IMG/VR virus record: IMGVR_UViG_3300030085_003572
Location: 1 to 39,129 of that record
Direction: 5' to 3' (one strand)
From: a virus
Length of the DNA stretch: 39,129 nt
Translations under genes and position numbers: made by a program
Part shown: one piece after another, positions 11,201 through 37,846 of the stretch
How positions within the stretch are numbered: the first letter of the stretch is position 1
Layout of the letters: the number at the start of each line of letters is the position of its first letter
The notes under the pieces: generated by a model
Database searches by the model: none
What the model saw: the letters and a program-made list of their open reading frames with translations, nothing else
What the model was told of the DNA's origin: nothing

Positions 11201-11641
11201 ATGTCAGTAAATGAAAAACCATTATACAAAAGTATTTCAGTAGGACAAAGTTCTACAAATCAACCTGTGACCTCAAAAAAATATAGAGGTATTAGCACAG
11301 TAGATAACATTGGTAATAATTTTGTAAAATATGATTTGGCTTTAATTAAACAAGACATAATAAATCACTTTCACATACGACAAGGTGAAAAACTTGAGAA
11401 CCCTGAATTTGGCACAATTATCTGGGATGTGCTTTTTGAACCACTTACTGATAGTTTAAAAGAAGCAATTATTAAAAATGTAACAGATATTATTAACTAT
11501 GATCCAAGAGTAAGTGTTAATAATGTTACAATACAAACATTTGAAAGTGGCATTCAAATTGAGTGTGCATTAACATATTTGCCATACAATATATCTGAAA
11601 GTTTACGTTTAACTTTTGACGAGTCTGCGGGTCTCATTTAA
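11201..11641 (+). CDS. 25: gp25 baseplate wedge protein
   Basis: A 146-residue protein; T4 gp25 has 132. It carries the gp25/lysozyme-like wedge core: KYDLALIKQDIINHFHIRQGEKLENPEFGTIIWDVLFEPLTD (residues about 47-88), with the conserved GE-(x)n-P-(x)-FGT pattern. gp25-type proteins are also part of contractile injection systems (TssE). In T4, gp25 stabilises the wedge near the hub and is the point from which sheath assembly starts. No strong Shine-Dalgarno is visible before the ATG; a late motif lies just ahead. A weak hairpin plus T-run starts at its stop codon. Confidence 0.92.
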   Translation: MSVNEKPLYKSISVGQSSTNQPVTSKKYRGISTVDNIGNNFVKYDLALIKQDIINHFHIRQGEKLENPEFGTIIWDVLFEPLTDSLKEAIIKNVTDIINYDPRVSVNNVTIQTFESGIQIECALTYLPYNISESLRLTFDESAGLI

Positions 11642-14600: not shown

Positions 14601-15247
14601 TACCGCCAAGCAGCGATAATTTATATTTAGATTATAGCCCAAGCATTAATGCTATCAAAAGTATTAGTGATGACGTAATATACCATCCGGTAAAATACAA
14701 ACCAATTTTAGGAAGCAAAAGTGACGTGGATTTACAAGCAACTATAAAAGTAGTTAAAAATACAGAACGTGTTGTAAATGATAATGATGTGAAAAGTAGA
14801 ATTATTGACGCTGTAAATTCTTTCTTTGCTTTAGAAAATTGGGATTTTGGTGAAACATTTTACTTTAGTGAACTAGCAACTTATATCATTAATCAATTAT
14901 CACCAGATGTTGTAAGTATTGTGTTGGTTCCAAAACAAGAGACACAAAGTTTTGGTAGTTTATACGAAATCAAAAGTGAAAACGATGAAATACTTATTAG
15001 CAGTGCAACAGTTGATGATGTAGAAATTATTGATGCAATTACTCAATCAAGACTGAAAGCATCTGGACTTGTTGTAACAAGTGATGATATATTAAATGTT
15101 GGAGTACAAAGTTCAGCAAATTCATCTACTGGATATACATTTGATACTTCATCAAGTCCAAATCCAAGTTCAGCTGCTCCTAGTGGATCTGGTGGATCCG
15201 GAGTAAGCGGAGGAGGTAGTTCCGGCGGTGGAGGCTACAGTTACTAA
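11693..15247 (+). CDS. 6: gp6 baseplate wedge protein, enlarged
   Basis: A 1184-residue protein; T4 gp6 has 660. The N-terminus has the gp6 signature: FKYADFQSYDFDNLRRTMINYIRQNYPEDFNDYIESSEYLALIDLIAFLGQNIAFRADLNARENYIETAERRESVLRLARLVSYN (broken here only by spelling, residues about 22-107). The C-terminal third (about 1000-1110) contains the J-like wedge segment with VDLQATIKVVKNTERV and DFGETFYFSELATYIINQL. The extra length lies mainly in the middle as beta-rich modules. The last 30 residues are a Gly/Ser run ending GGGGYSY. gp6 forms the inner ring of the baseplate and joins wedges together. The ATG at 11693 is preferred over 11686 because AAGGA sits 7 bases upstream. Its TAA overlaps the next ATG by one base. 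Confidence 0.88.
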   Translation: MSSTERQNRLLLAEDWKTVYQSFKYADFQSYDFDNLRRTMINYIRQNYPEDFNDYIESSEYLALIDLIAFLGQNIAFRADLNARENYIETAERRESVLRLARLVSYNTKRNQTANGLLKFESVATTEDVIDSNGTNLSGQTVIWNDSTNADWYEQFIKILNSALPTDAKFGKSIKKETIDSVLTEQYRLNAQTGTGLPIYSFTKNVDSITTQFEIVSTAIDNEKIYEEEPLAGNRLAFLYRDDGQGAGSNNSGFFLHFRQGRLENNVVTVNNPTPNTTINIDTDNINNSDVWLYKLDSNSLESELWTKVDNVEGNNIIYNSISKSVRNIYGVLSRVQDRISLIFSDGTFGTLPKGTFKVYYRTSNARQYKIVPSDMTGITISIPYTSAAGKIETLSITMELKSVIDNSSPAETNASIKTNAPSTYYTQNRLITGEDYNVGTLGINQNIVKTKAVNRTSSGISRYFDLRDASGKYSNTLLYSDDGILYTEDVNNKYSFDFVTRNDIESAVNNVITPAIKDTKLLNFYYKNFPRNTSVKALGFSWKFETFDTNRSTGYFIDLVNNVPVAVSSFTKSIMRFVTPGALIKFDAPTNYYFLPNGDLALGSASTAGSATYKWVKVVSIEDNGTVVNAETGLGPIVLNDKIPDTAVLAEIIPVLDTSITDAVKTQIIDQAFAYKTFGLRYDFEASQWRVIIANNLDTRNDFSLGKTGDSTNTQSDNSWLLLFETDGQKYTITARGRRYVFESNDQIRFFFDSTNKIYDSKSGTIVQDVIKVLSINTQPDALNPFTVDWPWQITKEYKNDAGYVNSKKIEISFFDSDSDGVVDDPDLFDHIVAPETNTNTKYIYQKKSTVNKTETFNYVDANKEPIYTKTSQGAVGALSQYNDGDVFYLIDRDVFLKFNKTANQLEFTSDYLAFLGRTDIKFEYSHAADEQARIDPSSSNIIDVYLLTKSYDNDYRDYIKGNVSMKPLPPSSDNLYLDYSPSINAIKSISDDVIYHPVKYKPILGSKSDVDLQATIKVVKNTERVVNDNDVKSRIIDAVNSFFALENWDFGETFYFSELATYIINQLSPDVVSIVLVPKQETQSFGSLYEIKSENDEILISSATVDDVEIIDAITQSRLKASGLVVTSDDILNVGVQSSANSSTGYTFDTSSSPNPSSAAPSGSGGSGVSGGGSSGGGGYSY

Positions 15248-18200
15248 TGGCATACAATGATGATCAAAACGAATTTCCGTTACCAGCAGGAAAAAATCCT
15301 AAAAGAAGTAGTGTAGAACAATTACCTAGATTTTTTAGAACACCTCAAAACAAAAAGTTTTTAAGCAGCACATTAGATCAATTAACCAATCCTGGTGTAA
15401 TTGAAAAAATCAATGGGTTTGTAGGAAAACGTGAAGCCAAAGCTGCAACAATAGAAGACAATTATGTTGAAGACATTTCTAAATCAAGAAATGATTATCA
15501 GTTTGAGCCAGTAAGTGTTTACGAAGATTTTTTAGGTAGTACAAAATATTACAGCGATTATAACGATTATATTGGCTTGCTAAAAACATATAATGCAAAT
15601 ACAGATAATCACAGTGCGTTGAATGAACAAGAATATTATGCCTGGAATCCAAATATTAATTTAGATAAATTTGCTAACTTCAGAGAATATTATTGGTTAC
15701 CTAATGGTCCACAGGAAGTTGCAATCAAAGGGCAAAGCAAAGAAGTTATAAGCACTTATAGACTTGAAGTATTAGAACAAGATAACGATATTAGTTTATT
15801 GTTTCATCCAGATGGATTAACAAAAAATCCTACACTAAATTTGTACAGAGGACAAACTTATAGATTTGAAATAAACGCACCAGGCAATCCTTTGAGTATT
15901 GCACTTTATAGAGGTGTTGATCCTAACGAACTTTTAGATGATAGTTCAATTTTGAATCAAACATATACCGAAGGTGTAACATTAATACCTGACACTGATG
16001 ATGTTTTGCTTAACCAAGACGATTTTGTTGCAGAAGATTATATAGAAAAAGGTATATTAGAATTCACTATACCAGATAATGCTCCAGATACACTTTACTT
16101 TATAAGCCAATATGATTTGAATATTAGTTCAAGATTACAAATTTCAAATATTGATGCTGCAAGTAAAATAGATGTTGAAAATGAAATACTTGATAAGAAA
16201 ACATACACAACATCGGATGGATGGGCTCTTAGCAATGGAATGAAAGTGTATTTTATAGGTGATGTTACACCAGCAAAATATGCAGAAGGTATTTGGTATG
16301 TAGAAGGTGTAGGCGATGAGATACGTCTTATTGCAGCAGAAGATTTACAAGTTCCTGCAATATTCACTAATGATAGTATTGTGCCATTTGATAAAAATGG
16401 TTTTGACAGAGTACCCTATGGCAATGCAAAAAGTTTTGCCGGCACCAAAGATTATATTGTAGTTAACAAATCAAGTCCAGATCGAAATCCTTGGGCACGT
16501 TATAACAGATGGTTCCATAAAGATGTTGTAACAAAAAGTGCTGAACTAAACGGACAAAGTTTTGACTTACCAGAAGAAAATCGTGCAAAGCGTCCTATTA
16601 TTGAATTTGATACAGGACTTAAATTATTTAACTTTGGTGCTAAAGCAAAAGATAATATCGATTTGATTGACACATATACAAATGATGTAAAATCAAAAAT
16701 TGAAGGACAACCAGGATACAGTGTAGATGGTGTAGAACTTTCAAATGGTATGCGTGTTATGTTTGTAAACGATACTGATAGTTTTGTTTATGGAAAAGTA
16801 TTTGAAGTTAAGTTTTTTGACTTTAAGGGCAATAGACAAATATCATTAGTTGAAACAACTGATACAATGCCAGCAGAAAATGAAACTGTGCTTGTTAAAG
16901 ATGGTAATGCAAATGCAGGTGCAATGTATTGGTACGACGGAACAACTTGGAAAAAAGCACAAGAAAAAACAGGTGTAAACCAAGCACCGTTGTTTGATTT
17001 ATGCGATGCTGAAGGAAATAGTTTCAGTGATACAATTACATATCCTGCCAGCGATTTTAAAGGTTGTAGAATTTTCAATTATGCTGTAGGTGAAGGTTCA
17101 AATGATGCCGAAATAGGATTTCCATTAACATATAAAAATATTAACAATACTGGAGATATTGTTTTTGACTTTAGTTTGTTAAAAGACAAGTTTACATACG
17201 AAGTAAGTAATCAAGTTTTTACTGTTGACACTTCAACAGGTTTCTTAAAAAAGTACGGACATATAGGAGATACTTTAGAATACGTAAACGGCTGGGTAAA
17301 AGCACCTACAATGAGCAAACAATACATTGTAAGAAAATTTACAGGACAAGAACGCACAAATAATTTTGTCATTGATGTTTACAAAGAAAGTGGATATATA
17401 AATGATTTGAAAGTAATTGTTTATGTAAACAATGAAGTCAAAACTGAAGGTGTAGATTTTAATTTTGCAATAGATTCAAATTACGACAAGCGTGTACAAT
17501 TTTTTAAAGATTTAGATGTAAATGATATACTCATTATAAAAGCACATTCTAAGACTGCAACAAAAACAAGTGTAGGTTATTATGAAACACCACATAACTT
17601 TGAAAGAAATCCACTTAATGAAGATATTACACAATTTACATTAGGAGAAGTTAGTGATCACGTAGACAGTGTTGCAGAAGAAGTTCCAAACTTTGTAGGT
17701 AAACAACCAGGTGCTAATAATTTACGTGACTTAGGAAATGTTAAAAAATATGGACGCAAGTTCGTACAACACAGCGGACCAATTAATTTACCCTTGTTTA
17801 GCATTAGCAACAAAGAAAATAATTTGATTGCTGCTATAAATTTTGCAAAAAATGAATACAGCAAATTTAAAAGAGCTTTTGTACAAGAAGCAGAAAACTT
17901 AGACTTATCTGGTTCAATCAAAGAACAAGTTGATACAGTATTATTAAGTTTAGTAAAAGATAAAAAATCTTCAATGCCTTTCTATCAAACAGATATGTTA
18001 GGTATTGGTGCAAACAAAAAAATAACACATACTGTGTTAGATACTGATATTAAATTTTATGCTTTAAGTGCGCCTTTCACTTTAACAGTGTTAAGTGAGA
18101 AAGCTGTAAATGTATATGTGAATGGAACACAAGTTTGTCATAATTTAGATTACACTTTTACAACAGAAGGCTTTGTGCAATTCGACACTGATTTCAATTT

Positions 18201-21200
18201 AGCAGTTGATGATGTTATTGAAATATATGAATACGAAACAACAAACGGTAGTTATATTCCACAGACACCAACAAAATTAGGATTATTTCCTGCATACAAA
18301 CCTGAGGTATTTGTTGATACAACTTATCAAGAAAATCAAACTGTAATTAGAGGACACGATGGAAGTATTATTATTGGTTATCAAGATTACAGAGACGACT
18401 TGTTGCTTGAATTTGAAAAAAGAGTGTACAATAATTTAAAAGTGCCTTATGATAGTAGTATTTTTGATGTATATGATTATATAAGCGGTGAATACAGAAA
18501 CAGCAAAGTATCAACTAAAGATTTAAACAGAATACTAATCAGTGATTTTGTAAACTGGTTAACAAAAGCTGGTAATGCTGACTATACAGAAAATACATTT
18601 GTTCAAGAAGCAGCAACTTTTACATATAACTATGGTTTTGGTAGCAGCAAAAACAATAAACCACTAGCAGGATTTTGGCGTGGTATCTATGTAAATGCAT
18701 ATGACACTGACAGTCCTAATTTACGTCCTTGGGAAATGTTAGGGTTTGCTGTTCAACCTACTTGGTGGGAAAGCAAGTACGGCCCTGCTCCATACACAAG
18801 TGATAATAAAGTTTTGTGGGAAGATTTAGAAAAGGGTATTATAAGATCTTCAGACTTAATACGTACAGATAAAAGATTTATACGTCCTGGTTTGACAAAA
18901 CATATTCCTGTAGATCAAAGTGGAAATATTCTTAGTCCTCTTGACAGCGGATATGTAAACGAATTTAGTTTTGGTGTACAAAATGGACAGCCTTTTAAAT
19001 TTGGTGATCACACACCAGCAGAAACTGCTTGGAGACGCAGCAGCGAATATCCGTTTGCTTTATTAAAAGCAATTATGATTAATAGACCAGCTCAAATTTT
19101 AGGTGTTGGTTTTGATAGATCAAGAATGAGTAGAAACTTAGTTGGACAACTTGTGTACAACGGTGTTACAAGCGAGCGTATAAAATTATCTAATCTTCTG
19201 TTTACAAACACAATAGTAAATGAACAAAATATTTTAACCGCAGGCTTTAACAATTACATATACGACTATATGTCTAGCGATATTACAACTCAGTACAGCA
19301 ACTTTACCACTAAGCTTAGAAACTTGAAACAAAAAATTGCTTTCAAACTTGGTGGTTTTGCAGACAAAGAAAAATTAAAACTTGTACTTGATAGTAAAAA
19401 TCCTAGTAACAAAGGAAATGTTTTTGTTCCTTTTGAAAATTATAAAATAGACTTAATACAAAGTTCGCCTCTTACAACTGTAACATACAGTGGCGTGATA
19501 ATTGAAAAGCGTTCTAATGGATTTAAGATAAGTGGATACGATAAAGAAAATCCAGTTTTTACATATAGTACACCTGTGTTATCGAGTAATGACATTAGTA
19601 TTAATGTAGGTGGCATAAGTGAAAGCTTTTTAAACTGGACTGAAGACAAACAATACATTGCAGGAAAGATTGTTAGATATGAAAACACATTTTATAGAGT
19701 AAATGTAAGTCATACAACAACAGAAGTTTTTGATAATAGTTTTTATACACCATTACGTGACTTACCAATTATTGGCGGCGCTTCTGCTACACTTAGAAAA
19801 AATTTCAGCAATATAACTGCTACATTAGATTATGGAACGGTTTTATCTACTGCTCAAGAAGTTGTAGACTTTATACAAGGATATGAAGATTATTTAAAAA
19901 AGCAAGGATTTGTTTTTGATTATTTCAACAAAGAAACCGAGGCTGTAGAAAACTGGACTTTAAGTATAAAAGAATTTTTATTTTATACAACACAAAATTG
20001 GGCAGTTGGTACAATCATAACATTAAGTCCATCTGCTAATAGTCTTAATTTTAGCAAAGACTATTTTGTAATAGATAATGTGCAAGAAAATATTTTTAAT
20101 TATAAAATATTAAATTTAGATGGTACTGCTGTTAAAGATATTAGTATTAGTATAAGTAGAGATGCTGGAAACAGTGTTGAAATACTACCTGCTAGTGGCG
20201 ACAGTGCAATTTACTTTGCAAAACTAGGCCTAATACAAAAAGATCACAGTGTAGTCATTGATAACAGCACAGTGTTTAATGATACAATATATAATCCTTC
20301 AAGTGGTTATAGACAAGAGCGTATAAAAGTTGTAGGATATAGAACAGACAATTGGAATGGTAATTTAGATATTCCAGGCTTCATTTATGATCAAGCAAAT
20401 ATAACTGAATGGGAACAATGGCAAGATTATGCACTTGGTGATCTAGTTAAGTATAAAGAATTTTATTATTCTGCAAATACATTTATTAGCGGACAATCTG
20501 TATTTGATAGTAGTCAATGGAATAGATTAGATGGAAAACCACAGAGCGGCTTGAAAACTAACTTTGATTATAAAGTAAATCAATTTGCTGACTTTTATGA
20601 TTTAGATACAGATAACTTTGACAGCGAACAACAGCGTTTAGCACAACATTTGATTGGTTATCAAAAGAGAGAATACTTAGATAATATAATAGAAGATGAT
20701 ATAAGTCAATATAAATTTTATCAAGGCTTTATACAAGAAAAAGGTACATTAAACAGTTTAACTAAATTCTTTGATAAACTAGGAAGTGCCGATCAAGAAA
20801 GTTTAGAGTTTTATGAAGAATGGGCAATAAGAAATGCACAGTATGGTGCTACTGATACGTTTGATGAATTAGAATATAAATTAGATGAAACTAAATTTAG
20901 AATAGAGCCTCAAATTATTGAATTAGTAGATGCTGTTAATAATAACAGAACAGATTTAGTATATGAAATTCCAGAATCAAAAGTTTATATCAAACCACAA
21001 GGTTACACAAAAACTCCATTTCCAAAAAAATACAGCACAGAAGAGTTTGCAAAAACTGCTGGATATGTTAGTTTAGATCAAGTTGATTTTCTTGCAAAAA
21101 CTCCAGATGATATTTTAGAATTAGATATTTCTAATGTTGCAGTTGACGACATAATTTGGGTTACATCAGAAAGAAATAGTTGGAACATTTATCAACATAT

Positions 21201-24200
21201 TACAATACCAAACAGAGTAGAAACATATACAAAAACTTCAACAGGATTTGATTTAAGATTTGATTCTATACCTGACCTTCAAGTAGGCGAAATATTTGGT
21301 GTGCAATTTGTAAATGATCTAGTTGATGGTTTTTATAAAGTAAGCAGTATTTCTAGCACACTTGTAAGTGTTGTTGCAGACATTACATATCCAGAGGAAA
21401 GTTTAGATTTAAGAGATAGCACTGCTGGCATTGTTACAAAATTATTATCAAAGCGTTATGATACTCCTACTAGTGTAAATGCAGACATTAATAAATTTGG
21501 GCTGAATGAAAACAACACTATCTGGATAGACAACGTAGCAAATGATAAGTTTGGTGTGTTTAAAAACAACAAAATTTTTAACAAAAAACAAGAATTATTC
21601 AACGTTGAAAGCGGAGATGGCGGTTTTGCAAGTAGTTTTGCAGTTAACGATGTTAACAGCATTTTTGCAGTTGGTAGACCTGATGATGAAAAAGTGTTTA
21701 TATACACTAGATCAAGCGAATCGCAAGATTTAAATTTTATACAAGAAATTGAAATGACTCCAGGCTTCCACGATAATGCTAGTGGGTTTGGTCAAAAAAT
21801 AAAGTTTTCAAATGACGGACAGTTTATGTTTGTTGCAGCACCACTTGCTAACAATGTAAAAACAAGATACAGAGGAGAAGCTGAATCAACATTTAACATT
21901 GTGAAGGATGATATTGTAAGCGATAGAGGTACTTTATGGAGAGCAAAAAGAGCCACCGACGATGATAGCAGTAGTATTAACACAAACAGCAGAGATTGGG
22001 AACAAGTTTACAAAATACCTGCAGATGATGAGGGCTACGTAAGCGGATTAAACAATCAAGGTTGTGTTTATGTTTACAAAAAACAACTAGATAACACTTA
22101 TTTTTTACTTGAACAATTTGTTTCAAATGAACCTACAGCAGACGAAAAATTTGGTATTGGTTTAGAAAGTGCATTTACAACAGACGAAACATATAAACTT
22201 TATGTTCGCAGCGAAGGCAATAACGGCAGAGTATATATGTTTGATACTACTTTTGCTCAAATGGAATTCAGAGGAACAATTGATCCTACATTTAGAGGTG
22301 ACTGGGACAACTTTCATTCTTATGTTACAGGGGCTATTGTACAAGAAGAAGGTCAATTGTACAAGGCAAAAGTTGACATTCCAAAAGGTGGCAACGGTCC
22401 TACTGACATAGCATTATGGGAAAGCATTGATGTAAATATTGACCGTTTTGGATATTTGCCATATGCAAGTACAATACAAGGTGACACTGATAGCACAGCA
22501 TTTAACAATACAACCAGTGCTGGTAAAAATATTGGTGTAAGCACAAATGGAGAAGTGCTATCTTTCACAGCGTTCAACAATTCAACAAATGAATTCCAAG
22601 TTAATGTTTATAGATTGCAAGAGGGTAGATATGCTTTCTATGAAGCAATAACATCTCCTAGCACTAATGTTTCTTGGGGTGCAAGTGTAGCACTAAGTGA
22701 TGATGGAAGTTATATCGCAGTAGGTGCTAATTTAGAAGATATAGTAACAACAGATGATTTAGGCATTGACAAAGGTATTGTTTACATATACAAATACAAC
22801 ACTAGTACTCAACAGTTTGAAAATACACAAACATTGCAAGCACCTGCTGCAACTAAAAATGAAAGATTTGGTTATAAAGTTGAATTTAGTAACAACAAAC
22901 TTTGTGTTATAGGTGTTAATGGACTTAATATTGGTAGCACATTATTTGACACAAATGAAACTACATTTGATAATAATTCTACAAAGTTATACGACTTTTC
23001 AACAAGAAGACCGCAAGCTTATACATATGAACTTTTAAACGATATCTATACAGTCAGCGAAGTTATAGATTACGAATCGTATTATGTAGACAACGGTTTA
23101 ACATTGCAAAGAGATTTAGCGTCTGCTAATGATGTTGAAGTAGTTTATCAAAATAATCATTTGTATTTAGGTTTTGACGGATTAGATACAGGTGATAGCA
23201 AGTTTGGTTTAATTTTTGATTTACGTCACGATAGAGATGTAACAAATTGGAATACACTAGGAGCAGCAACAGATTTTATTGATTATGAAAAAATGCGTGG
23301 TGCATTTTTATATGATAGTGTTACAAGTGATTTAATCACATATATAGATATTATTGATCCAATTCAAGGAAAAATTGCAAATGCTGCTGAAAGAGAAATA
23401 AATTATAAATTATATTACGATCCAGCAGTTTATAATATAGGAAACACAGACACAGGTATTGTCAATCCTTGGGGAGAAGAACGTGTAGGAGAACTTCTTT
23501 GGGATCTGAATGCAGTTAAGTGGTACAATCCTTATCAAAAAAATAGTGATTATAGTAGTAATACTTGGAATAAAATTATACCAGGATATACAATTGATAT
23601 TTACGAATGGGTATCAAGCACATTATTACCAGACGAATGGGACGCTGTGGCAGATACTACTGAAGGATTAGCAGATGGTATTAGTGGTTCTACAAGATAC
23701 GGTAACACACGTTATGTAAGAAAAAATGTTTATGATCCTGTAAGTGGATTGTTTTCTGCAAAGTATTATTATTGGGTAAAGAATACTAAAGTTTTACCTG
23801 CTGTTGAAAATAGAAATATCACTGCTGCTGCTGTTGCATCTCTTATTGAAGATCCTGCAGGAAACGGTTATAGATTCTTAGCAATGTTTGGTGCTGATAA
23901 TTTTGCTGTTTACAATTGCACTAATTTAATTAAAGATACTGATACTGTTTTACACTTTGAATATTACAACACAGATGAAGTTAAAATTAATAACTTGCAC
24001 AGGGAGTACAATTTATTAACCGAAGGGCTATCTACAAGTCAACCAAACGACAGACTAGTAGGTAAATGGATTGATAGTTTAGTTGGATATGATGAACAAA
24101 GAACATTGTTACCTGTTACTACTTTGAGTGTAGCAAGACGTTATGGTATTTTAGATGATCCATTACAAACTATGTTTGTAAACAAAACTGAAGCACTGAA

Positions 24201-27200
24201 GCAAGTAATTGAAAGAATAAATCTTGTATTACGCAAAAAACTCATTGTTGATGAATTTGATATTAGTGGATTGTCTGCAAAAGATCCACAACCTACAACA
24301 GTCTCAAGAGAATTTGATACTACTGTAGATGATCAAACTCTTTTAAGGTTTATTGGTACAAGTAAAATACAACAAGCTACATTGAGTGTAGATATTGTTG
24401 ATGGTAGATTAACAAATATTACAATTACCAATCCAGGTAGAGGATATATTGATCCTGCATACAACAGCTCAACTGATACTAAACGTAGAGGACCAAAAGT
24501 TACTATTACAGGTTCTGGTATGGGTGCAGAAATAGAAACATATATTAATAATTTAGGACAAGTTATTGAAGCAAATATTGTAAATGAAGGAAAGAATTAT
24601 AATCCAGCAACAACTACTGTTACTGTAAGACCTTTTACTGCACTTATAAAAACAGATACAACATTATTAGGATTTTGGGCAACATATATTTGGAACGCTA
24701 CTGAAAAAGAATGGGTGCGTATAAACAATCAAAATTACGATGCAAGTTTGTACTGGAAATATATTGATTGGTACGCAGAAGGATTTAGCAAAGAAACAAG
24801 TATTGATTATTTGGTTCCTGGTAGTTATGCATTAGGTGGTTTAGAAGACAACCTTGGTGATATTGTTAAAATTGAAAGTATTGGTTCCGGCGGTTGGTTG
24901 CTATTAAGAAAAATAGACAATCAGTTAGAAGTTGATTATACAGTAAATTATGAAACAATTGGTAGACAAAATGGCACAATTGAGTTTAGTAGTTTATTAT
25001 ACAACAACGATAGATTTGGTTTTGATAAAGCAGTTTATGATAGTGCTTTATATGACAGAGATGCTGGAGAAGAAGTTAGAATAATTTTACAAACAATAAA
25101 CAAATCTATATTCGTTGATGAACTCAAAGTAGAATGGAATAAATTATTCTTTAGTAGTGTACGTTATGCACTTGCAGAACAACCTAATATTGATTGGATA
25201 TTCAAAACAGCATTTGTAAAAGCAAAACACAATGTTGGATCATTAGAACAAAAAACAACATATAAGAGTGATAGTTTAGAAAGTTATAATCAATATGTTG
25301 CTGAAGTAAAACCTTACAGTACAAAGATTAGAGAATTCTTAAGTGCATATGAAAATATTGATCCAACTGCAACAAATGTAACTGACTTTGATTTACCTCC
25401 ACGTTACGATTTGAACGCACAAAAAATTGTTTCAGAGACTGCTAATGTTGTTGATAGCAAAATTAGAAACTATAGTGAATTTGTTACAACATATCCACAA
25501 CGTAATTGGTTTGATAATGTTGGCTTTGAAGTTAAAGAAGTTGTACTCACAGACGGCGGCAGCGGATGGACAAATGCACCTAGAGTAGTTATGAGTGGAG
25601 GCGGTGGTCCAACAGTGATTGGTTCTACTACTATTAACGAAGGCAGAGTTACAGGTATAGTAATTGACTTTGCAAACTTAAAATATATTACAGCTCCTAA
25701 TATAACTTTTGAAGGAGATCAAGGAAACGTTTCAACATCAACAGTCCAATTTAATGTCACTGTTGCAAGTGGCACGAATACCTATGGTGCAGGTAACAAA
25801 TATTATATCCAAGGATATGCAGATGTAAGTCCTATACTTACGTTGTTAGAAGGCCAAACTTATAGATTCGACCAGAGTGATCCTTCTAATGCAACCCATC
25901 AACTATTAATTTCAACTACTGCAAACGGTACTTGGGACGGCGGAGTAGAATACACAACTGGTGTTACCAAAGTAGGTACAGCAGGTAGTCCAGGTGCATA
26001 TACAGAAATTACTGTTCCAACTGGTGCTCCAACACTATACTATTACTGTATTAATCATAGTGGAATGGGAGGACAAGCAAATACAACAGCAGGCACACAG
26101 CAAAATTATAGTACTACAATTAAGCCAGCTAGAGCAACTGCTATTATCGGTAATGGTCCAGTAAGAGCAACTCATATGTTGATAAAGTTTGATCGTGTAG
26201 CAGGTGCTTATGTTGTTACTGATTTAGATGTTACACAGAATTTTACAGGCACAGGTTCTCAAGTTGATTATATTCTAAAATGGCCAATCAATGTAAAACC
26301 TGCAAATACAAAAATTACTGTAAATGGTGTTGAACAACTATCAAATGATTACACAGTAACAAATGTAAAAGATACAACTGCTAGTTATCCAAGATATTAT
26401 GGTAAAATTACTTTTACAAACGCACCTGCAATTAATGATGCAATTGTAATTGAATACGACAAAGATATTGATTACTTAACTGCATCTGATAGAATAAACT
26501 TTTTCTATAATCCAACCTCAGGACAATTTGGTAAAGATTTAGGACAGTTAATGGATGGTGTAGACTACGGAGGTGTTCAAATAGACACTGCTAGTTTTGG
26601 CGCATCACAGGGATTTAACAACGGTGATTTCTTTGGATCAACACCATTTGATAGATTTAGCACAAACAACGAAGATGAAGTTTTTATACTTGATGGTAGC
26701 ACACAATCTATTACTGTAAGCAAACCATTTGAAGCTGGAATAAAATACAATGTATATTTCAAAGCAAGCACAGCAGGCGTTGACGTAGATCCAACTAGAA
26801 TTGACAGTGAAGATTTTGGTACAGCTGAAGCACCCGAAACTGCTACAATGTTAACTATTGTTGGTGATGGTATTACAAGCACATTTATAATAGACGAAGA
26901 TTTACTTGTTACTAGAGATGGTGACACTATTATTGTTAGAAAAGAAACTAGCGATGGTGCAGTTACACCTAGTGGTGTTATTTTTGATACACAAATAAGC
27001 GGTGGGGATTTAACTAATGTAGCAGGACAATTTAGCACAGCAACAGGTATTGATGCAGCAAATATTGTTATTGACGGCGATGATTTTGTATCACCTACTA
27101 CAAGTAAAGGCACAGAAGAAAATGTACCAGGACAGATTTTAGATACACTTGACTTACAAGTTTTTGAACGTGTGAGTGACGGACAAGGTGCAATTACTGT

Positions 27201-29406
27201 ACAAAATTTCCAAACAGATGGTGTTAGTGCAGAATATTATATTGAAAGTTTACCTTCAAACGAAGATAGTGTAATTGTAAAATTAGACAACGTTGTTTTA
27301 GATACTTCACAGTATGAAATTGATTATGCTGAAAACGTATTAAGAATTAGCGATAGTAGTTTATTACCAGTAGGCAAGCATCTTTCACTATTGACAATTG
27401 GTACAAATGGGTCTAATATTATAGAAAGTGATACTTTTACTGGTGATGGAAGAACCAACAATTTTGTAACTTATTATAAGTTCGAACAAAACGTCACAGC
27501 AGTAGTTAGTGTAAATGGTGTAATTAGCACAACATTTGGATTAGATGCATCTGGACCAGAATATGGTGATAATGCAAATAAAATTATGATTGTGTTTGGA
27601 GAAACGCCTCCGGCAAATAGTATTATTACGTACACACTTTACAAAGGTTCAGGAAAACAATACAGTCAACTTGCTATTGATGATACATTTAACAGAACAG
27701 TAACTACAAACAGATCACACACGTTTGGTGTAAATGGCGCAGTGCCGTTACCATTTAACAAAAAACCATTTAGTCATAATATTTTAGTTAAAGTTGGAGA
27801 CGATTTCTTAGATGCAGGTTACGTAAAAAAACATACTTTGACAACTGCAAGAACTTATGAAATTGATAACTGGCAGTTTATTGACCAAACATTAATTAAA
27901 CAAAGCGATGTACTAATTTATATCAATGATCAAATAGTTGATCCAGTTAATTATGTGTTTAGCACTATTGATGGAAGAATTGAATTAACCACTAGAGAAG
28001 TAGGTAAAAGCGGAGATATAATGCGTGTTTACTTATTAAACGATAGTCAATACTTTTTTGTAGACACTGTGGTGAAATTAACAAATGCAGCAACTTTGTT
28101 TGAGTATGCTCCATTAGAAAAAATAAACTTTGAGCTTAATGACAGCACTAGTGTGATAGCAACTGTGCAAGAATACACAAAGTCTGGATCAGAAGTAACC
28201 ATCAAATTACAAGGATACGTTAGAGATTTAGTGTTACTTGCAGATAAAGATGACACACCTAGTTTGTGGGCAGATGATAGTACACAATTTAAAATAGATA
28301 GTATTAATATTGTTGAAAGTGATAGATTAAGTCTTAAGGATATTCCTAACGATGATGTAAAAATATATGTATTTTCTAATCACGACACAAATGAGTTTGA
28401 AAGACTTAGTTTACGTGTTGCCTATGAAGATGAAAATGCTCCTGCAGGTTCAGATAATTATCTTTCAAGAAATTTATTAAGCAAAGGCGAAATAAAACTT
28501 GATAAGAAAATACCGGGTCCAGAATATGCTTGGGTATTTTTAAATGGTAAATTTTTAACTTCGCAAGCAGATTATACACTGTCTGATAATAGAGAATATA
28601 TTATTCTAAGTGAACAGCCAATAAAAGATGATAGAATTGAAATACTTTATTTCACAGCAGATGTAAGTAAGAAAAAATTTGCATATAGAATTTTCAAAGA
28701 TGTGTTAAACAGATATCATTACAAACGCATTAATAGTGCAATGGAATATGAACTTGCAACTGATTTAAATTGGTATGATTTATCTATAAATCTAAAAAGT
28801 TCAGATGGATTAGACGAACCAAATCGAGAACTTGCTATACCTGGAATAATTTTTATTAATGGCGAAAGAATAGAATATTTTATCAAACAAGGAAATATTT
28901 TAAGACAATTAAGAAGAGGAACATTAGGTACTGGTGTAAAAGACGTGCATCCAAGACACAGTAGAGTATTCCATCAAGGTGTGAGTGAAACTATACCGTA
29001 TCAAGATACAACATACACACAAACATTCACAGGTGACGGTAGTTCAACAACATTTAACCTTAACTGGACACCAAATAGTGTAAACGAGTTTGATGTTTTT
29101 GTTGCTGGAACTAGATTAAGAAAAGCCACTCCAATTGTTAATGCTAATGATGGTATTGACTATAATTATTATGAGTACGATAGCACTTTAGATCAAGATA
29201 GTCCAGGAGGAGATGTAGTAGTTCCAGCAGAATTTACTGTTGAAAATAACATTTTAACACTAGTTACTGCACCTCTTGCTGATACAGAAGTAAGAATAAT
29301 TAGAAAAACTGGTAAAATTTGGAATGACGATGGAGTAAGTCTTGCAAGTAGTAAAAATACTATAAGCAGATTCCTAACAGATAGCACATATAAGCTCGCC
29401 CGATAA
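15247..29406 (+). CDS. Giant multidomain baseplate/fibre protein (4719 residues)
   Basis: One uninterrupted frame of 14.16 kb. It starts on the gene 6 stop (TAATG), the position of gene 7 in T4. The N-terminus (SSVEQLPRFFRTPQNKKFL, then VIEKINGFVGKREAKA) matches, from memory, large structural proteins of marine T4-like phages. Modules I can see: a degenerate cupredoxin-like fold (about 188-300); short VNG-type beta modules near 718, 950, 3684, 4008, 4221, 4426 and 4610; carbohydrate-binding-like W/Y modules near 1462-1507, 1719-1765, 2219-2256 and 2345-2395; FG-GAP-like propeller repeats (about 2101-2564); two G-x-G-x-x-x-x-P beta domains (about 3047-3130 and 3427-3500); and a cupredoxin-like domain with intact ligand pattern (about 3520-3615). 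No membrane segment or protease motif is seen. It probably joins the wedge to peripheral host-contact modules. That role is inference; virion location is well supported by context. Confidence 0.85.
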   Translation: MAYNDDQNEFPLPAGKNPKRSSVEQLPRFFRTPQNKKFLSSTLDQLTNPGVIEKINGFVGKREAKAATIEDNYVEDISKSRNDYQFEPVSVYEDFLGSTKYYSDYNDYIGLLKTYNANTDNHSALNEQEYYAWNPNINLDKFANFREYYWLPNGPQEVAIKGQSKEVISTYRLEVLEQDNDISLLFHPDGLTKNPTLNLYRGQTYRFEINAPGNPLSIALYRGVDPNELLDDSSILNQTYTEGVTLIPDTDDVLLNQDDFVAEDYIEKGILEFTIPDNAPDTLYFISQYDLNISSRLQISNIDAASKIDVENEILDKKTYTTSDGWALSNGMKVYFIGDVTPAKYAEGIWYVEGVGDEIRLIAAEDLQVPAIFTNDSIVPFDKNGFDRVPYGNAKSFAGTKDYIVVNKSSPDRNPWARYNRWFHKDVVTKSAELNGQSFDLPEENRAKRPIIEFDTGLKLFNFGAKAKDNIDLIDTYTNDVKSKIEGQPGYSVDGVELSNGMRVMFVNDTDSFVYGKVFEVKFFDFKGNRQISLVETTDTMPAENETVLVKDGNANAGAMYWYDGTTWKKAQEKTGVNQAPLFDLCDAEGNSFSDTITYPASDFKGCRIFNYAVGEGSNDAEIGFPLTYKNINNTGDIVFDFSLLKDKFTYEVSNQVFTVDTSTGFLKKYGHIGDTLEYVNGWVKAPTMSKQYIVRKFTGQERTNNFVIDVYKESGYINDLKVIVYVNNEVKTEGVDFNFAIDSNYDKRVQFFKDLDVNDILIIKAHSKTATKTSVGYYETPHNFERNPLNEDITQFTLGEVSDHVDSVAEEVPNFVGKQPGANNLRDLGNVKKYGRKFVQHSGPINLPLFSISNKENNLIAAINFAKNEYSKFKRAFVQEAENLDLSGSIKEQVDTVLLSLVKDKKSSMPFYQTDMLGIGANKKITHTVLDTDIKFYALSAPFTLTVLSEKAVNVYVNGTQVCHNLDYTFTTEGFVQFDTDFNLAVDDVIEIYEYETTNGSYIPQTPTKLGLFPAYKPEVFVDTTYQENQTVIRGHDGSIIIGYQDYRDDLLLEFEKRVYNNLKVPYDSSIFDVYDYISGEYRNSKVSTKDLNRILISDFVNWLTKAGNADYTENTFVQEAATFTYNYGFGSSKNNKPLAGFWRGIYVNAYDTDSPNLRPWEMLGFAVQPTWWESKYGPAPYTSDNKVLWEDLEKGIIRSSDLIRTDKRFIRPGLTKHIPVDQSGNILSPLDSGYVNEFSFGVQNGQPFKFGDHTPAETAWRRSSEYPFALLKAIMINRPAQILGVGFDRSRMSRNLVGQLVYNGVTSERIKLSNLLFTNTIVNEQNILTAGFNNYIYDYMSSDITTQYSNFTTKLRNLKQKIAFKLGGFADKEKLKLVLDSKNPSNKGNVFVPFENYKIDLIQSSPLTTVTYSGVIIEKRSNGFKISGYDKENPVFTYSTPVLSSNDISINVGGISESFLNWTEDKQYIAGKIVRYENTFYRVNVSHTTTEVFDNSFYTPLRDLPIIGGASATLRKNFSNITATLDYGTVLSTAQEVVDFIQGYEDYLKKQGFVFDYFNKETEAVENWTLSIKEFLFYTTQNWAVGTIITLSPSANSLNFSKDYFVIDNVQENIFNYKILNLDGTAVKDISISISRDAGNSVEILPASGDSAIYFAKLGLIQKDHSVVIDNSTVFNDTIYNPSSGYRQERIKVVGYRTDNWNGNLDIPGFIYDQANITEWEQWQDYALGDLVKYKEFYYSANTFISGQSVFDSSQWNRLDGKPQSGLKTNFDYKVNQFADFYDLDTDNFDSEQQRLAQHLIGYQKREYLDNIIEDDISQYKFYQGFIQEKGTLNSLTKFFDKLGSADQESLEFYEEWAIRNAQYGATDTFDELEYKLDETKFRIEPQIIELVDAVNNNRTDLVYEIPESKVYIKPQGYTKTPFPKKYSTEEFAKTAGYVSLDQVDFLAKTPDDILELDISNVAVDDIIWVTSERNSWNIYQHITIPNRVETYTKTSTGFDLRFDSIPDLQVGEIFGVQFVNDLVDGFYKVSSISSTLVSVVADITYPEESLDLRDSTAGIVTKLLSKRYDTPTSVNADINKFGLNENNTIWIDNVANDKFGVFKNNKIFNKKQELFNVESGDGGFASSFAVNDVNSIFAVGRPDDEKVFIYTRSSESQDLNFIQEIEMTPGFHDNASGFGQKIKFSNDGQFMFVAAPLANNVKTRYRGEAESTFNIVKDDIVSDRGTLWRAKRATDDDSSSINTNSRDWEQVYKIPADDEGYVSGLNNQGCVYVYKKQLDNTYFLLEQFVSNEPTADEKFGIGLESAFTTDETYKLYVRSEGNNGRVYMFDTTFAQMEFRGTIDPTFRGDWDNFHSYVTGAIVQEEGQLYKAKVDIPKGGNGPTDIALWESIDVNIDRFGYLPYASTIQGDTDSTAFNNTTSAGKNIGVSTNGEVLSFTAFNNSTNEFQVNVYRLQEGRYAFYEAITSPSTNVSWGASVALSDDGSYIAVGANLEDIVTTDDLGIDKGIVYIYKYNTSTQQFENTQTLQAPAATKNERFGYKVEFSNNKLCVIGVNGLNIGSTLFDTNETTFDNNSTKLYDFSTRRPQAYTYELLNDIYTVSEVIDYESYYVDNGLTLQRDLASANDVEVVYQNNHLYLGFDGLDTGDSKFGLIFDLRHDRDVTNWNTLGAATDFIDYEKMRGAFLYDSVTSDLITYIDIIDPIQGKIANAAEREINYKLYYDPAVYNIGNTDTGIVNPWGEERVGELLWDLNAVKWYNPYQKNSDYSSNTWNKIIPGYTIDIYEWVSSTLLPDEWDAVADTTEGLADGISGSTRYGNTRYVRKNVYDPVSGLFSAKYYYWVKNTKVLPAVENRNITAAAVASLIEDPAGNGYRFLAMFGADNFAVYNCTNLIKDTDTVLHFEYYNTDEVKINNLHREYNLLTEGLSTSQPNDRLVGKWIDSLVGYDEQRTLLPVTTLSVARRYGILDDPLQTMFVNKTEALKQVIERINLVLRKKLIVDEFDISGLSAKDPQPTTVSREFDTTVDDQTLLRFIGTSKIQQATLSVDIVDGRLTNITITNPGRGYIDPAYNSSTDTKRRGPKVTITGSGMGAEIETYINNLGQVIEANIVNEGKNYNPATTTVTVRPFTALIKTDTTLLGFWATYIWNATEKEWVRINNQNYDASLYWKYIDWYAEGFSKETSIDYLVPGSYALGGLEDNLGDIVKIESIGSGGWLLLRKIDNQLEVDYTVNYETIGRQNGTIEFSSLLYNNDRFGFDKAVYDSALYDRDAGEEVRIILQTINKSIFVDELKVEWNKLFFSSVRYALAEQPNIDWIFKTAFVKAKHNVGSLEQKTTYKSDSLESYNQYVAEVKPYSTKIREFLSAYENIDPTATNVTDFDLPPRYDLNAQKIVSETANVVDSKIRNYSEFVTTYPQRNWFDNVGFEVKEVVLTDGGSGWTNAPRVVMSGGGGPTVIGSTTINEGRVTGIVIDFANLKYITAPNITFEGDQGNVSTSTVQFNVTVASGTNTYGAGNKYYIQGYADVSPILTLLEGQTYRFDQSDPSNATHQLLISTTANGTWDGGVEYTTGVTKVGTAGSPGAYTEITVPTGAPTLYYYCINHSGMGGQANTTAGTQQNYSTTIKPARATAIIGNGPVRATHMLIKFDRVAGAYVVTDLDVTQNFTGTGSQVDYILKWPINVKPANTKITVNGVEQLSNDYTVTNVKDTTASYPRYYGKITFTNAPAINDAIVIEYDKDIDYLTASDRINFFYNPTSGQFGKDLGQLMDGVDYGGVQIDTASFGASQGFNNGDFFGSTPFDRFSTNNEDEVFILDGSTQSITVSKPFEAGIKYNVYFKASTAGVDVDPTRIDSEDFGTAEAPETATMLTIVGDGITSTFIIDEDLLVTRDGDTIIVRKETSDGAVTPSGVIFDTQISGGDLTNVAGQFSTATGIDAANIVIDGDDFVSPTTSKGTEENVPGQILDTLDLQVFERVSDGQGAITVQNFQTDGVSAEYYIESLPSNEDSVIVKLDNVVLDTSQYEIDYAENVLRISDSSLLPVGKHLSLLTIGTNGSNIIESDTFTGDGRTNNFVTYYKFEQNVTAVVSVNGVISTTFGLDASGPEYGDNANKIMIVFGETPPANSIITYTLYKGSGKQYSQLAIDDTFNRTVTTNRSHTFGVNGAVPLPFNKKPFSHNILVKVGDDFLDAGYVKKHTLTTARTYEIDNWQFIDQTLIKQSDVLIYINDQIVDPVNYVFSTIDGRIELTTREVGKSGDIMRVYLLNDSQYFFVDTVVKLTNAATLFEYAPLEKINFELNDSTSVIATVQEYTKSGSEVTIKLQGYVRDLVLLADKDDTPSLWADDSTQFKIDSINIVESDRLSLKDIPNDDVKIYVFSNHDTNEFERLSLRVAYEDENAPAGSDNYLSRNLLSKGEIKLDKKIPGPEYAWVFLNGKFLTSQADYTLSDNREYIILSEQPIKDDRIEILYFTADVSKKKFAYRIFKDVLNRYHYKRINSAMEYELATDLNWYDLSINLKSSDGLDEPNRELAIPGIIFINGERIEYFIKQGNILRQLRRGTLGTGVKDVHPRHSRVFHQGVSETIPYQDTTYTQTFTGDGSSTTFNLNWTPNSVNEFDVFVAGTRLRKATPIVNANDGIDYNYYEYDSTLDQDSPGGDVVVPAEFTVENNILTLVTAPLADTEVRIIRKTGKIWNDDGVSLASSKNTISRFLTDSTYKLAR
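15805..16146 (+). other. Degenerate cupredoxin-like domain in the giant protein
   Basis: Residues about 188-300 follow the same order as the later cupredoxin-like domain: TLNLYRGQTYRFEI, then YTEGVTLIP, then LEFTIPDNAPDTLYFIS. Where the later copy has Cys, His and Met, this one reads FISQYDLN, so a copper site is absent. The fold relation is inferred from the shared GQTYRF and P-(x)-APDTLYF pattern. Confidence 0.5.
21547..22938 (+). other. FG-GAP-like beta-propeller repeats with inserted binding-like modules
   Basis: Residues about 2101-2564 of the giant protein hold at least six repeats of the form FG-x-x-(V/I)-x-(F/L)-S-x-D-(G/N)-x-x-(F/I)-x-(V/A), for example SGFGQKIKFSNDGQFMFVAAP, WGASVALSDDGSYIAVGA and NERFGYKVEFSNNKLCVIGV. 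Two short W/Y modules resembling chitin/cellulose-binding CBM5/12 units (about 2219-2256 and 2345-2395) interrupt them. Confidence 0.55.
25804..26091 (+). other. Cupredoxin-like domain with type-1 copper ligand pattern
   Basis: Within the giant protein, LTLLEGQTYRFDQSDPSNATH leads to H3551. The domain closes with TLYYYCINHSGMGG, giving C3601, H3604 and M3607. His plus C-x2-H-x2-M is the ligand set and loop spacing of amicyanin-type blue copper proteins. The fold call rests on motif order; metal binding is untested. Confidence 0.55.
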
Positions 29407-29425: not shown

Positions 29426-30031
29426 ATGATAGAAAAAGAACATAACGGTGTACACATAGAGGGACATATAAAAATATATAACCCTGAATCAGGTTTTGTG
29501 TTTGTAGATAAACGCAATGCAATTCACTATGAAAATATGAGTATCAGTCTTGCAGAAAGTTTAGGCAATATTGGTCAAGGGTTTATTAGTGAAATGAGTT
29601 TTGGTAATGGCGGAACTATAGTTGATCCCACAGGTATAATTACATACCTTACTCCAAATTCAACAGGAACAAATGCAAGCTTATACAACCAAACGTACAC
29701 CAAGGTTGTAGATGCAAACAATGTTAATAATACTGATCCTACTAGAAATAAAATTGAAACTAGACACGTTAGTGGAACAAATTACACTGACGTTGTTGTA
29801 AGTGCTTTACTTGATTACGGTGAGCCAGACGGACAAGATGCGTTTGATACAGCAGCAGATACAGAACAACAATTTGTATTTGATGAGCTAGGTTTAAGAG
29901 GTTATAGTGCAAGCGGTACAGGAAGATTAATAACACACGTAATCTTCCACCCAGTACAAAAATCATTAAACAGATTGATTCAAATTGACTACACTGTAAG
30001 AGTACAAAGCCTTAGCGGAGGTAACAGCTAA
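29426..30031 (+). CDS. Virion structural protein of unknown function
   Basis: A 201-residue protein. The start ATG has AAGGA 7 bases upstream and a late motif. Recognisable segments are SGFVFVDKRNAIHYENMSISLAESL (residues about 26-50), FISEMSFGNGGTIVDPTGIITYLTPN (about 53-78) and a C-terminal strand pair, LITHVIFHPVQKSLNRLIQIDYTVRV. I have seen this pattern among structural proteins of marine T4-like phages but know no function. It contains no signal or membrane segment. The TAA overlaps the ATG of the first fibre gene by one base. Its place between the giant protein and the fibres suggests a connector at the baseplate rim. Confidence 0.75.
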   Translation: MIEKEHNGVHIEGHIKIYNPESGFVFVDKRNAIHYENMSISLAESLGNIGQGFISEMSFGNGGTIVDPTGIITYLTPNSTGTNASLYNQTYTKVVDANNVNNTDPTRNKIETRHVSGTNYTDVVVSALLDYGEPDGQDAFDTAADTEQQFVFDELGLRGYSASGTGRLITHVIFHPVQKSLNRLIQIDYTVRVQSLSGGNS

Positions 30032-32058
30032 TGGCATATGAGATTCCTTTTACAGATGAGGCAAACAAAGGTACTATTACTGTTGAAGATAGCAGTATTA
30101 ATACTGATACAAGTTTAGGCCTAATAGGTAGAAACCTAACAGATTACGGTAGTAGTGTAAACACAAACTTTTTGCAAATGTTAGAAAACTTTGCTAATGC
30201 AAATCCTCCAGGTAATCCTGTAGAAGGACAACTTTGGTATGACACAACTGCTGGTATAGATCAATTAAAAATTTATGACGGAACGCAGTGGGTATCTGCT
30301 GGAGGTGTAAAAAAATCAGCAGTACAACCTGCTGTTGATAACAGCACTGTAGGCGATATTTGGGTTGATACAGAAAACAGTCAAATGTACATTTACACAG
30401 GTAGTGGATATGTATTAGTTGGTCCTTCTTATAGCAGCGCAGAAATCACTGGTGCAATTTCAATACAGGTTGACAGAGCAGACGATCAACCAGCTAAAAA
30501 ACTTACAGCAATATATGCTGAAAATGTTATTGTTGCACTTATAAGTGATGAAGAATTTGCTCCTAAAGCAAATGTTGCAGGATACACATCAACCTTTCCT
30601 ATTAAAATTGGTATAAACCTAAACAGATCTCTAACAAGTGTTCTCAATGGTACAGCTGAAAAAGCAAACAATATGGTTATTAATAACTTGCCAGTTCCTG
30701 GAACAAGTTTTGTAAGGAATGATGCAGAAGCAGGTAAGCAAACAATTGATACGCCTTTGAGAATAAGTGATAATAGAGGAATAGATTTTGGACAAACAAA
30801 AACGTTAAGTGTTTTTGTAGAAGATTCAGATAGTGTAATTGAACACTCTGGTACTGGTACATTAGACTTAAGAACAACAATTACATCAACACCTGCAATA
30901 AGAGTTAAATCTGATGCTGTTGTAAATCAAATTGGTATTAACAATGCTAGTCCTACCGAATCACTAGATGTCACAGGTAACTTGTTAGCAAGTGGAACAA
31001 TAAAAACAACTGATACAACAAACTCGTCAAGTAGTATTACTGGTTCTATTACAACACCTGGTGGTATTGGTGTTGCATTAGATGCACATATAGGCGGAAC
31101 ATTAACAGTATCAAGCAATATTACAGCAGAAAATATTATACCTGAAAATGATAATACACACAATTTAGGTACTTCTTCATTGTATTATGATAATTTGTAT
31201 GCTAATAGAATTAACACAACTTCTATTCAACCAAAAGCAGGTAGTAGTCTAGCTATAACTGGGACATTGACAGGTTCGTCAACAAGTGCAGGCAAATTAA
31301 ATAGCGCAACTACATTTAGACTTGAAGGCGAAGTTTCAGCAGATAGTTTTACATTTGACGGACAAACAGGCGGACTTACTAAAACACTTGCAAATAGTGT
31401 AATTGATCCAACTTTTGTAACTAACAAAGGTGCATTACCTAGTTCTATAGTAGGTACAGATGAATTTTTAGTTGCAAGAGGTAGCGACTTATATAAAACA
31501 ACACAAAGTGATATCATTGGCAGTATACAAACTATTCCAATTGGCACTGTTACAGCATTTGCTGGCGGTGTTGCTCCGGCAGGATGGTTAATTTGTAATG
31601 GTGATGCTTATCAAGACACTGTTTACAATTTATTGTTTGCTATAATTGGTACAACATATGGTTCAGCTGGAGGCGGAACATTTAGAGTTCCTGACTTAGC
31701 AGGTAGACATCCAGTAGGCTTACTAGGAGTTCCGTCTAACAATAACAATAGAATCTTATCAGGGTCAGGCACTATAGGCGGTGTAAGTGGTAATCCTACT
31801 TCTACTATTGCTACATCTAACTTACCTGATCATACTCATTCACTTGATAGTGACACAGGAGATCAATTTTATGCAACTACAACTATTGCATCACAAACAG
31901 GTTCTAATACAAGCGCAGGTGGAGGCGCAGCTGATGGAGCAAACGGTAGTAAAATATCAGTTACAGGCGGCATACCAGGTGCAACTAATACTCCTTTAGA
32001 TACAACTGATCCATTTGTAGCAATGAATTACATTATTTACACAGGGCAGATAATATGA
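30031..32058 (+). CDS. Tail-fibre protein with C-terminal phage tail-collar domain
   Basis: A 675-residue protein. The N-terminal 130 residues (LIGRNLTDYGSSVNTNFLQ, then GQLWYDT, then LKIYDGTQW) are shared with the next two gene products and probably anchor to the baseplate. The middle is beta-structured, with NLGTSSLYYDNLYAN typical of fibre stalks. Residues about 501-590 are a tail-collar domain like T4 gp12: GTVTAFAGGVAPAGWLICNGDAY, LLFAIIGTTYGSAGGGTFRVPDLAGRHPVG. It is followed by DHTHS with H601-x-H603, then FVAMNYIIYTGQ at the end. In gp12 an HxH motif binds zinc in the receptor-binding tip. The function is probably host attachment. GGAGGT precedes the ATG by 8 bases; the stop overlaps the next start (ATGA). 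Confidence 0.88.
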   Translation: MAYEIPFTDEANKGTITVEDSSINTDTSLGLIGRNLTDYGSSVNTNFLQMLENFANANPPGNPVEGQLWYDTTAGIDQLKIYDGTQWVSAGGVKKSAVQPAVDNSTVGDIWVDTENSQMYIYTGSGYVLVGPSYSSAEITGAISIQVDRADDQPAKKLTAIYAENVIVALISDEEFAPKANVAGYTSTFPIKIGINLNRSLTSVLNGTAEKANNMVINNLPVPGTSFVRNDAEAGKQTIDTPLRISDNRGIDFGQTKTLSVFVEDSDSVIEHSGTGTLDLRTTITSTPAIRVKSDAVVNQIGINNASPTESLDVTGNLLASGTIKTTDTTNSSSSITGSITTPGGIGVALDAHIGGTLTVSSNITAENIIPENDNTHNLGTSSLYYDNLYANRINTTSIQPKAGSSLAITGTLTGSSTSAGKLNSATTFRLEGEVSADSFTFDGQTGGLTKTLANSVIDPTFVTNKGALPSSIVGTDEFLVARGSDLYKTTQSDIIGSIQTIPIGTVTAFAGGVAPAGWLICNGDAYQDTVYNLLFAIIGTTYGSAGGGTFRVPDLAGRHPVGLLGVPSNNNNRILSGSGTIGGVSGNPTSTIATSNLPDHTHSLDSDTGDQFYATTTIASQTGSNTSAGGGAADGANGSKISVTGGIPGATNTPLDTTDPFVAMNYIIYTGQII

Positions 32059-36693: not shown

Positions 36694-36702
36694 GGAGTCT
36701 TA

Positions 36703-37788: not shown

Positions 37789-37791
37789 CCA

Positions 37792-37833: not shown

Positions 37834-37846
37834 ATAGGAGATAATT

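Follow-up and report, generated by a model that had tools for sequence, protein, structure and literature searches.

A 4719-residue protein in the gene 7 position of a T4-like baseplate cluster is a probable wedge protein of a jumbo-phage lineage

Baseplate proteins of the closest described systems

In phage T4, baseplate genes 6, 7 and 8 follow one another and gp7 comprises 1032 residues. The much smaller gpI of phage P2 (Tail_P2_I, 176 residues) is encoded behind the gp6-type gene J and ahead of the fibre genes and displays a K-G-T motif followed by E-W. T4 gp8 and A511 gp105 possess a common fold and join receptor-binding proteins to the baseplate, as described in the Milano paper (PMC10811340), and gp105 is named wedge protein 3 in a Bacillus phage paper, which reports carbohydrate-binding modules added in one phage (PMC11406892).

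Cyanophages have giant proteins in the gene 7 slot. The gp7 of P-HM2 (4,454 residues) is located between gp6 and gp8, that of P-SSM2 has 5,195 residues and the "baseplate wedge initiator" of S-B05 has 4,024. A tblastn search with the start of the P-HM2 giant retrieved 493 records, and among the 50 listed many are annotated as "baseplate wedge initiator" or structural protein. According to one paper on pelagimyophages, gp7 is absent from cyano- and pelagimyophages, which have VrlC in its stead. The T4 gp7 profile matches P-SSM2 at 8e-5 and P-HM2 at 1.6e-3, and hhalign aligns T4-type gp7 with P-HM2 at the T4 gp7 motif (2.6e-4); judged from these sequence similarities, the presence of the motif in cyanophage giants disagrees with the published absence. 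The loci of cyanophage giants carrying the motif are L009, 9174-22538, and L180, 13980-29092.

In isolated jumbo phages, giants of the PHROG 10938 family are found in Phosso (4,555 aa), Atu_ph07 (4,449 aa), Paride (3,857 aa), SCTP-2 (3,807 aa), Vibrio 2.275.O (3,771 aa), CBB (3,340 aa), PBECO4 (3,333 aa), XaC1 (3,332 aa), and RaK2 (3,326 aa). Among the open-licence PMC matches listed, no title on a giant wedge protein of jumbo phages was found.

Reading frame, gene order and relatives of the giant

The window, that is, the whole stretch of DNA analysed here, consists of positions 1 to 39,129 of the metagenomic virus record IMGVR_UViG_3300030085_003572 (39,129 bases), a fragment of a marine phage. 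The + strand encodes a baseplate cluster resembling that of T4 (Table 1), and genes for a late sigma factor and for SbcC/SbcD are located on the opposite strand. A late sigma factor/SbcC/SbcD block also precedes the cluster in RaK2, PBECO4, XaC1, and Paride. Because the 201-residue protein encoded next to the giant has a gp8-type predicted fold, a separate gene 8 is read here and the predicted gene order is 25-6-giant-8-type-fibres, as in T4. Two observations concern the surroundings of the giant. The gp6-like protein has 1184 residues, compared with 660 in T4, and its C-terminal end forms a long Gly/Ser-rich tail. Past the fibre genes, at positions 35512-39009, four open reading frames (393, 361, 115, and 272 aa) gave no PHROG match at E 0.001.

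Table 1. Baseplate-cluster genes in the window and conserved blocks, sites and modules of the giant
Feature	Positions in window	Strand	Evidence
gp53-like protein	start 5559	+	
777-aa virion protein	5865-8198	+	
gp5-like protein	start 8195	+	
Protein with weak tape-measure similarity	start 9885	+	
gp25-like baseplate wedge subunit	11201..11641	+	phrog_261 9.8e-18, phrog_43 4.3e-13
gp6-like baseplate wedge subunit, 1184 aa	11693..15247	+	phrog_10646 2e-289, phrog_219 7.7e-22
Giant, 4719 aa, gp7 slot	15247..29406	+	phrog_10938 1095.7 bits
Conserved N-terminal block, aa 19-168	15301..15750	+	28-37% identity, giants of 8/8 jumbo phages compared
N-terminal cupredoxin-like domain, aa ~190-300, ligand motif lost	15814..16146	+	relative L210
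Best conserved core, aa 1002-1950	18250..21096	+	23-32% identity to jumbo giants
CBM5/12-like chitin-binding-type module, aa 1457-1511	19615..19779	+	PF02839 4.3e-7 at aa 1463-1491; VIA Z 6.9, chitin-binding modules
Second CBM5/12-like module, aa 1716-1762	20392..20532	+	Z 6.7, 45 residues, 1.2 A, Milano baseplate chain 8fqc_P1; PF02839 second stretch
K-G-T site, aa 1823-1860, candidate gp7/gpI-type core	20713..20826	+	weak profile similarity
FG-GAP-like propeller repeat, aa 2474-2515	22666..22791	+	PF14312 7e-4, 20.2 bits (below cut-off 23)
Conserved blocks, aa 2668-3000 and 3142-3424	23248..25518	+	24-32% identity to jumbo giants
GGxGY-type repeat module, aa ~3428-3486	25528..25704	+	hhalign 8.3e-5 to BUCT608 gp7 residues 218-276
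Second cupredoxin-like module, aa 3486-3612	25702..26082	+	H3551, C3601, H3604, M3607
201-aa gp8/A511 gp105-type connector candidate	29426..30031	+	phrog_11259; predicted-fold matches
Three fibre-type genes	30031-32058, 32055-33950, 33982-35490	+	tail fibre/collar and related PHROGs

The open reading frame of the giant, as given in the ORF listing, begins with ATG and has 4719 codons; it occupies 14,160 of the 39,129 bases (36%), and the final A of the TAA that closes the gp6-like gene doubles as the A of its ATG, which bears out a sequence-only reading of this DNA in which a single frame, starting on the gene 6 stop, took up more than a third of the window. An IMG/VR contig from another sample (L027) is 99.76% identical to window positions 6951-30646 and retains the giant frame intact. 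Scanning IMG/VR with residues 1-1800 of the giant revealed 559 related stretches, 80 of which were kept. In 60 of the 175 IMG/VR loci fetched with the giant or its relatives, the longest open reading frame is closed at both ends, and 55 of these 60 frames, with 2,613-5,064 residues from stop to stop, carry the conserved core.

In a profile search, the giant matches PHROG 10938 ("virion structural protein") over four stretches, and by this similarity it is a further member of the known giant baseplate protein family of jumbo phages. The giants of RaK2, 121Q/PBECO4, CBB, PA5oct/Paride, Atu_ph07, and Phosso types share with it the family, the place behind gp6 and the conserved blocks, whereas at 4719 residues it is longer than the giants of the nine isolates (3326-4555 residues), and its last ~900 residues and its second cupredoxin are nearly private to close relatives. 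When residues 1-900 were used in tblastn, 57 phage records were obtained, and nearly all of the 40 listed are jumbo phages; residues 901-1800 gave 59 phage records, all listed and nearly all jumbo phages. Identities were below 60% in every record of both searches. A phmmer search of the PDB with residues 1-1800 gave 0 hits, and IMG/VR scans with the giants of Vibrio 2.275.O and Salicola phage SCTP-2 revealed no relative. In nine isolate genomes the giant gene lies directly behind a large gene that is annotated as a wedge protein gene in most of them, and of the 167 IMG/VR loci in which 600 or more bases could be inspected, 164 have gp6 as the neighbour upstream. In SCTP-2 the gene upstream of the giant comprises 9,291 bases and is unannotated (L007, 8606-17896). 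A giant of this kind is not peculiar to the phage of the window, as giants fill the slot throughout the lineage and in the marine cyanophages.

Support for a virion location comes from relatives. CBB_236, which by its locus tag is the CBB giant, was detected in CBB virions with 21 unique peptides and 7.72% coverage (PMC5259590). In phAPEC6, gp245 (381.88 kDa) was detected with 17 unique peptides and is listed after the wedge protein gp244 (PMC7247149); its size and place suggest that gp245 is the giant of phAPEC6. A structural protein of 2,541 residues adjoining a wedge gene has been reported for RsoM2USA (PMC8504454).

Resemblance to gp7, conserved core, modules and the 201-residue neighbour

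By position the giant occupies the place of gene 7, as had been proposed from the sequence, between a gp6 recognised by PHROG and a gp8-type neighbour recognised by predicted fold. No gp7 profile matches the giant in PHROG or in Pfam, including its Gp7 domains, and NCBIfam and Pfam scans of residues 1651-2050 gave no gp7-type match. TIGR02242 matches phiM12 gp7 at 9.9e-6 and P-HM2 weakly but not the giant, and hhalign comparisons of the giant core with T4 gp7 and P-HM2 gp7 were not significant. The T4 gp7 family phrog_964 matches in 0 of the 12 jumbo-type records, and a full-length match to phrog_958 (gp10) was obtained in T4 only, T4-type gp10 being found neither merged nor separate in the other records.

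Within the core of the giant a K-G-T site was distinguished; its K and its G do not vary across an alignment of 83 sequences. When the giant was divided into 78 windows and compared with a block of T4 and cyanophage gp7 sequences, this site scored best (0.017), and it ranked 6 of 78 against P2 gpI, 11 against BUCT608, and 15 against phiM12. When an alignment of 96 sequences was employed, no other place in the core did better, whether the comparison was with the gp7 block, P2, or BUCT608 (0.009-0.04) or, by a narrow margin, with phiM12 (0.08), all of these values (0.009-0.08) being uncorrected and not significant. This alignment (A2) and a smaller one of 31 sequences (A3) were chosen from 167 and 35 usable sequences, respectively, plus the window. 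A PSSM scan was made with 80 of 89 collected giants, namely those that have 2,000 residues or more and in which the K-G-T pattern could be located; the site ranked first in 55 of the 80, which are related giants and so do not represent 55 independent events, and its median rank was 29 when the K-G-T triple was left out. With the same alignment method the gp7 block reaches only 0.086 against P2 gpI, no closer than the giant, and the K-G-T comparison is therefore weak rather than negative. P2 gpI has the K-G-T followed by E-W in common with the giant, whereas its overall similarity to the giant is not significant (0.025). The motif, which T4 possibly shares as well, is found at residue ~216 in cyanophage gp7 and at ~1830 in the giant. 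On these sequence comparisons the site bears a weak resemblance to the core motif found in gp7 and in P2 gpI. That the giant does the job of gp7 is likely from its position, direct similarity in sequence and fold being weak.

The cyanophage gp7 or "baseplate wedge initiator" (phrog_2885/701) occupies the same slot, has a similar size and has cupredoxin and GGxGY modules in common with the giant, whereas beyond these modules no common core was found by BLAST or hhalign. The hhalign match of BUCT608 gp7 to the GGxGY-type module of the giant was rejected as proof of orthology because this repeat occurs in many tail proteins.

Blocks common to the jumbo giants cover residues 19-168, ~300-917, 1002-1950, 2668-3000, and 3142-3424. 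An AlphaFold2 model of residues 1002-2010 had a mean pLDDT of 83.4. This core was searched whole against the PDB, and the rows listed, filled by matches to its two carbohydrate-binding modules, name chitin-binding and other unrelated chains and no gp7-type chain, which speaks neither for nor against a gp7 fold; a BFVD search gave giants of the same kind, which were the best matches, and other phage proteins, none of them named gp7.

The modules named in the earlier reading are present as two CBM5/12-like modules, supported by PF02839 and by the model, and as cupredoxin-like domains recognised by motif; of the propeller, an FG-GAP-like repeat was indeed seen, with a score below the Pfam cut-off. 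Residues 132-309 of the giant share 31.8% identity (2e-27) with a ligand-bearing domain of the relative L210. In this first cupredoxin-like domain the motif C-x2-H-x2-M is absent from the giant and from 75 of 75 near relatives with a located core, whereas upstream of the K-G-T site it is kept in 28 of 79 distant relatives. The second cupredoxin-like module contains the full His, Cys, His, Met set of type-1 copper ligands, and its C-x2-H-x2-M is kept in 46 of 47 HSPs, corresponding to 46 of 277 loci. From these motifs, both domains may be cupredoxins and the ligands may bind copper. The second module is 61% identical to a virion protein of cyanophage S-TIM5, an identity well in excess of that along the remainder of the giant, and it is absent from L045, whose giant is otherwise 75-79% identical, suggesting that the module was probably exchanged, apparently recently, between unrelated phage tails. 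It was found in 1 of 75 near relatives, a lower bound as many contigs end upstream of it. A search of PDB sequences with residues 3486-3612 gave 0 hits at E up to 10, and among the open-licence PMC matches listed, judged by title and start of abstract, none was found on a cupredoxin in phage tails. The chitin-binding-like and cupredoxin modules are genuine additions to the giant.

The AlphaFold2 model of the 201-residue neighbour had a mean pLDDT of 88.0. Its best match was a tail protein of HFTV1 (Z 9.7, Foldseek E 3.5e-4), followed by phiKZ gp139 and A511 gp105 (both Z 7.4), a phiKZ baseplate rim chain (Z 7.0), and 9f4a_A4 (Z 5.9), the gp8 orthologue of a T4-like Klebsiella phage. The first five VIA rows all belong to tail proteins of viruses and, although a Z near 7 may be due to chance, they are coherent with a candidate connector of the gp8/A511 gp105 type. 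The likeness to T4 gp8 and A511 gp105 concerns predicted fold and gene position, whereas the lengths differ (334 versus 201 residues) and no gp8 sequence profile (phrog_977, phrog_438) matches the neighbour; hhalign of its family against gp6-gp12, wac, and gp53 gave nothing. The family, phrog_11259, which is listed in PHROG as of unknown function, is found in 12 of 12 jumbo-type records, though not always adjoining the giant, and in none of the 3 T4/cyanophage records. A missing gp8, or one merged into the giant, as the earlier reading had it, is not supported, given this neighbour and its family. Matches to phrog_438 inside giants were rejected as merged gp8 because those of jumbo-type giants all fall on profile positions 185-301, a repeat of many tail proteins. 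Confinement of host contact to the giant is likewise not supported, three fibre-type genes following the neighbour.

Proposed role of the giant and its alternatives

With a probability of roughly 0.7, we consider the giant to be an enlarged wedge protein of the gp7 slot (wedge protein 2) with host-contact modules, belonging to a jumbo-phage lineage. This reading is favoured because the giant follows gp6 in the window, in the nine isolates and in nearly all IMG/VR loci inspected, because the next gene has a gp8/gp105-type predicted fold, and because cyanophage giants in the same slot are annotated as gp7 and carry the T4 gp7 motif. It is also favoured because no separate T4-type gp7 was found in the 12 jumbo-type records and CBB_236 is found in virions, and because the K-G-T site is the best window against the gp7 block and ranks first in most giants scanned. 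Counting against it are the lack of a gp7 profile match, the non-significance of the K-G-T site, its lower ranks against P2 gpI, BUCT608, and phiM12 and its rank once the triple is removed, and the published account of gp7 absence and VrlC use in cyano- and pelagimyophages. In each wedge, a small helical K-G-T domain of the giant would bind the gp6 pair, and the giant would contact the gp8-type connector, the separate 201-residue product of the adjoining gene, which would link wedge and fibres. Long arms with cupredoxin-like, CBM5/12-like, propeller-like, and GGxGY modules would reach outward from the wedge, where these modules may touch the cell surface, possibly binding host sugars, beside the ordinary fibres.

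Alternatively, the giant might be a peripheral adhesin encoded among wedge genes, another protein such as the gp6-like protein or the 777-residue virion protein doing the job of gp7. The nearly doubled length of the gp6-like protein relative to T4 gp6, the absence of a significant gp7 match from the giant and its wealth of adhesin-like modules would fit such an arrangement. However, the best conserved part of the giant is a core with few modules, unlike an adhesin, and the 6-giant-8-type order is kept across the lineage, and so we regard this alternative as unlikely while giving it some weight. Much more improbable is a polyprotein that is cut during assembly so that peripheral proteins come apart from a gp7-like portion: the size of the giant is suggestive and the low mass-spectrometry coverage of relatives (7.6% and 7.72%) leaves room for cutting, but no cut site or protease tied to the giant was found and the closed relatives differ in length by inserted modules, not by unit blocks. 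An artefact of assembly or annotation, conceivable for a metagenomic virus record, was rejected and has practically no probability left given the frame kept in L027, the 55 closed relatives and the comparable giants of isolate genomes.

As an extension of the wedge-protein reading, a single polypeptide might span the whole wedge, with its core on the side of the sheath and its rim towards the cell, uniting a gp7-type core with exchangeable adhesin modules, including a cupredoxin with an intact copper site that comes from cyanophage tail proteins; we offer this as a speculation of low probability. If it were true, wedge and first host contact would be one chain, a binding event at the rim could be transmitted directly to the gp6 ring, bypassing a relay such as gp9/gp10 of T4, and a metal- or redox-sensitive domain would sit in the trigger.

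For the largest protein of a widespread jumbo lineage (RaK2, 121Q, CBB, PA5oct, and Atu_ph07 types), the gene order and the gp8-type neighbour point to an identity as wedge protein 2, where PHROG 10938-type giants have so far been listed only as virion structural or hypothetical proteins. By its predicted fold, phrog_11259 now becomes linked to the gp8/gp105 connectors, and host-contact modules appear to be traded among the giant baseplate proteins that marine phages and jumbo phages encode.
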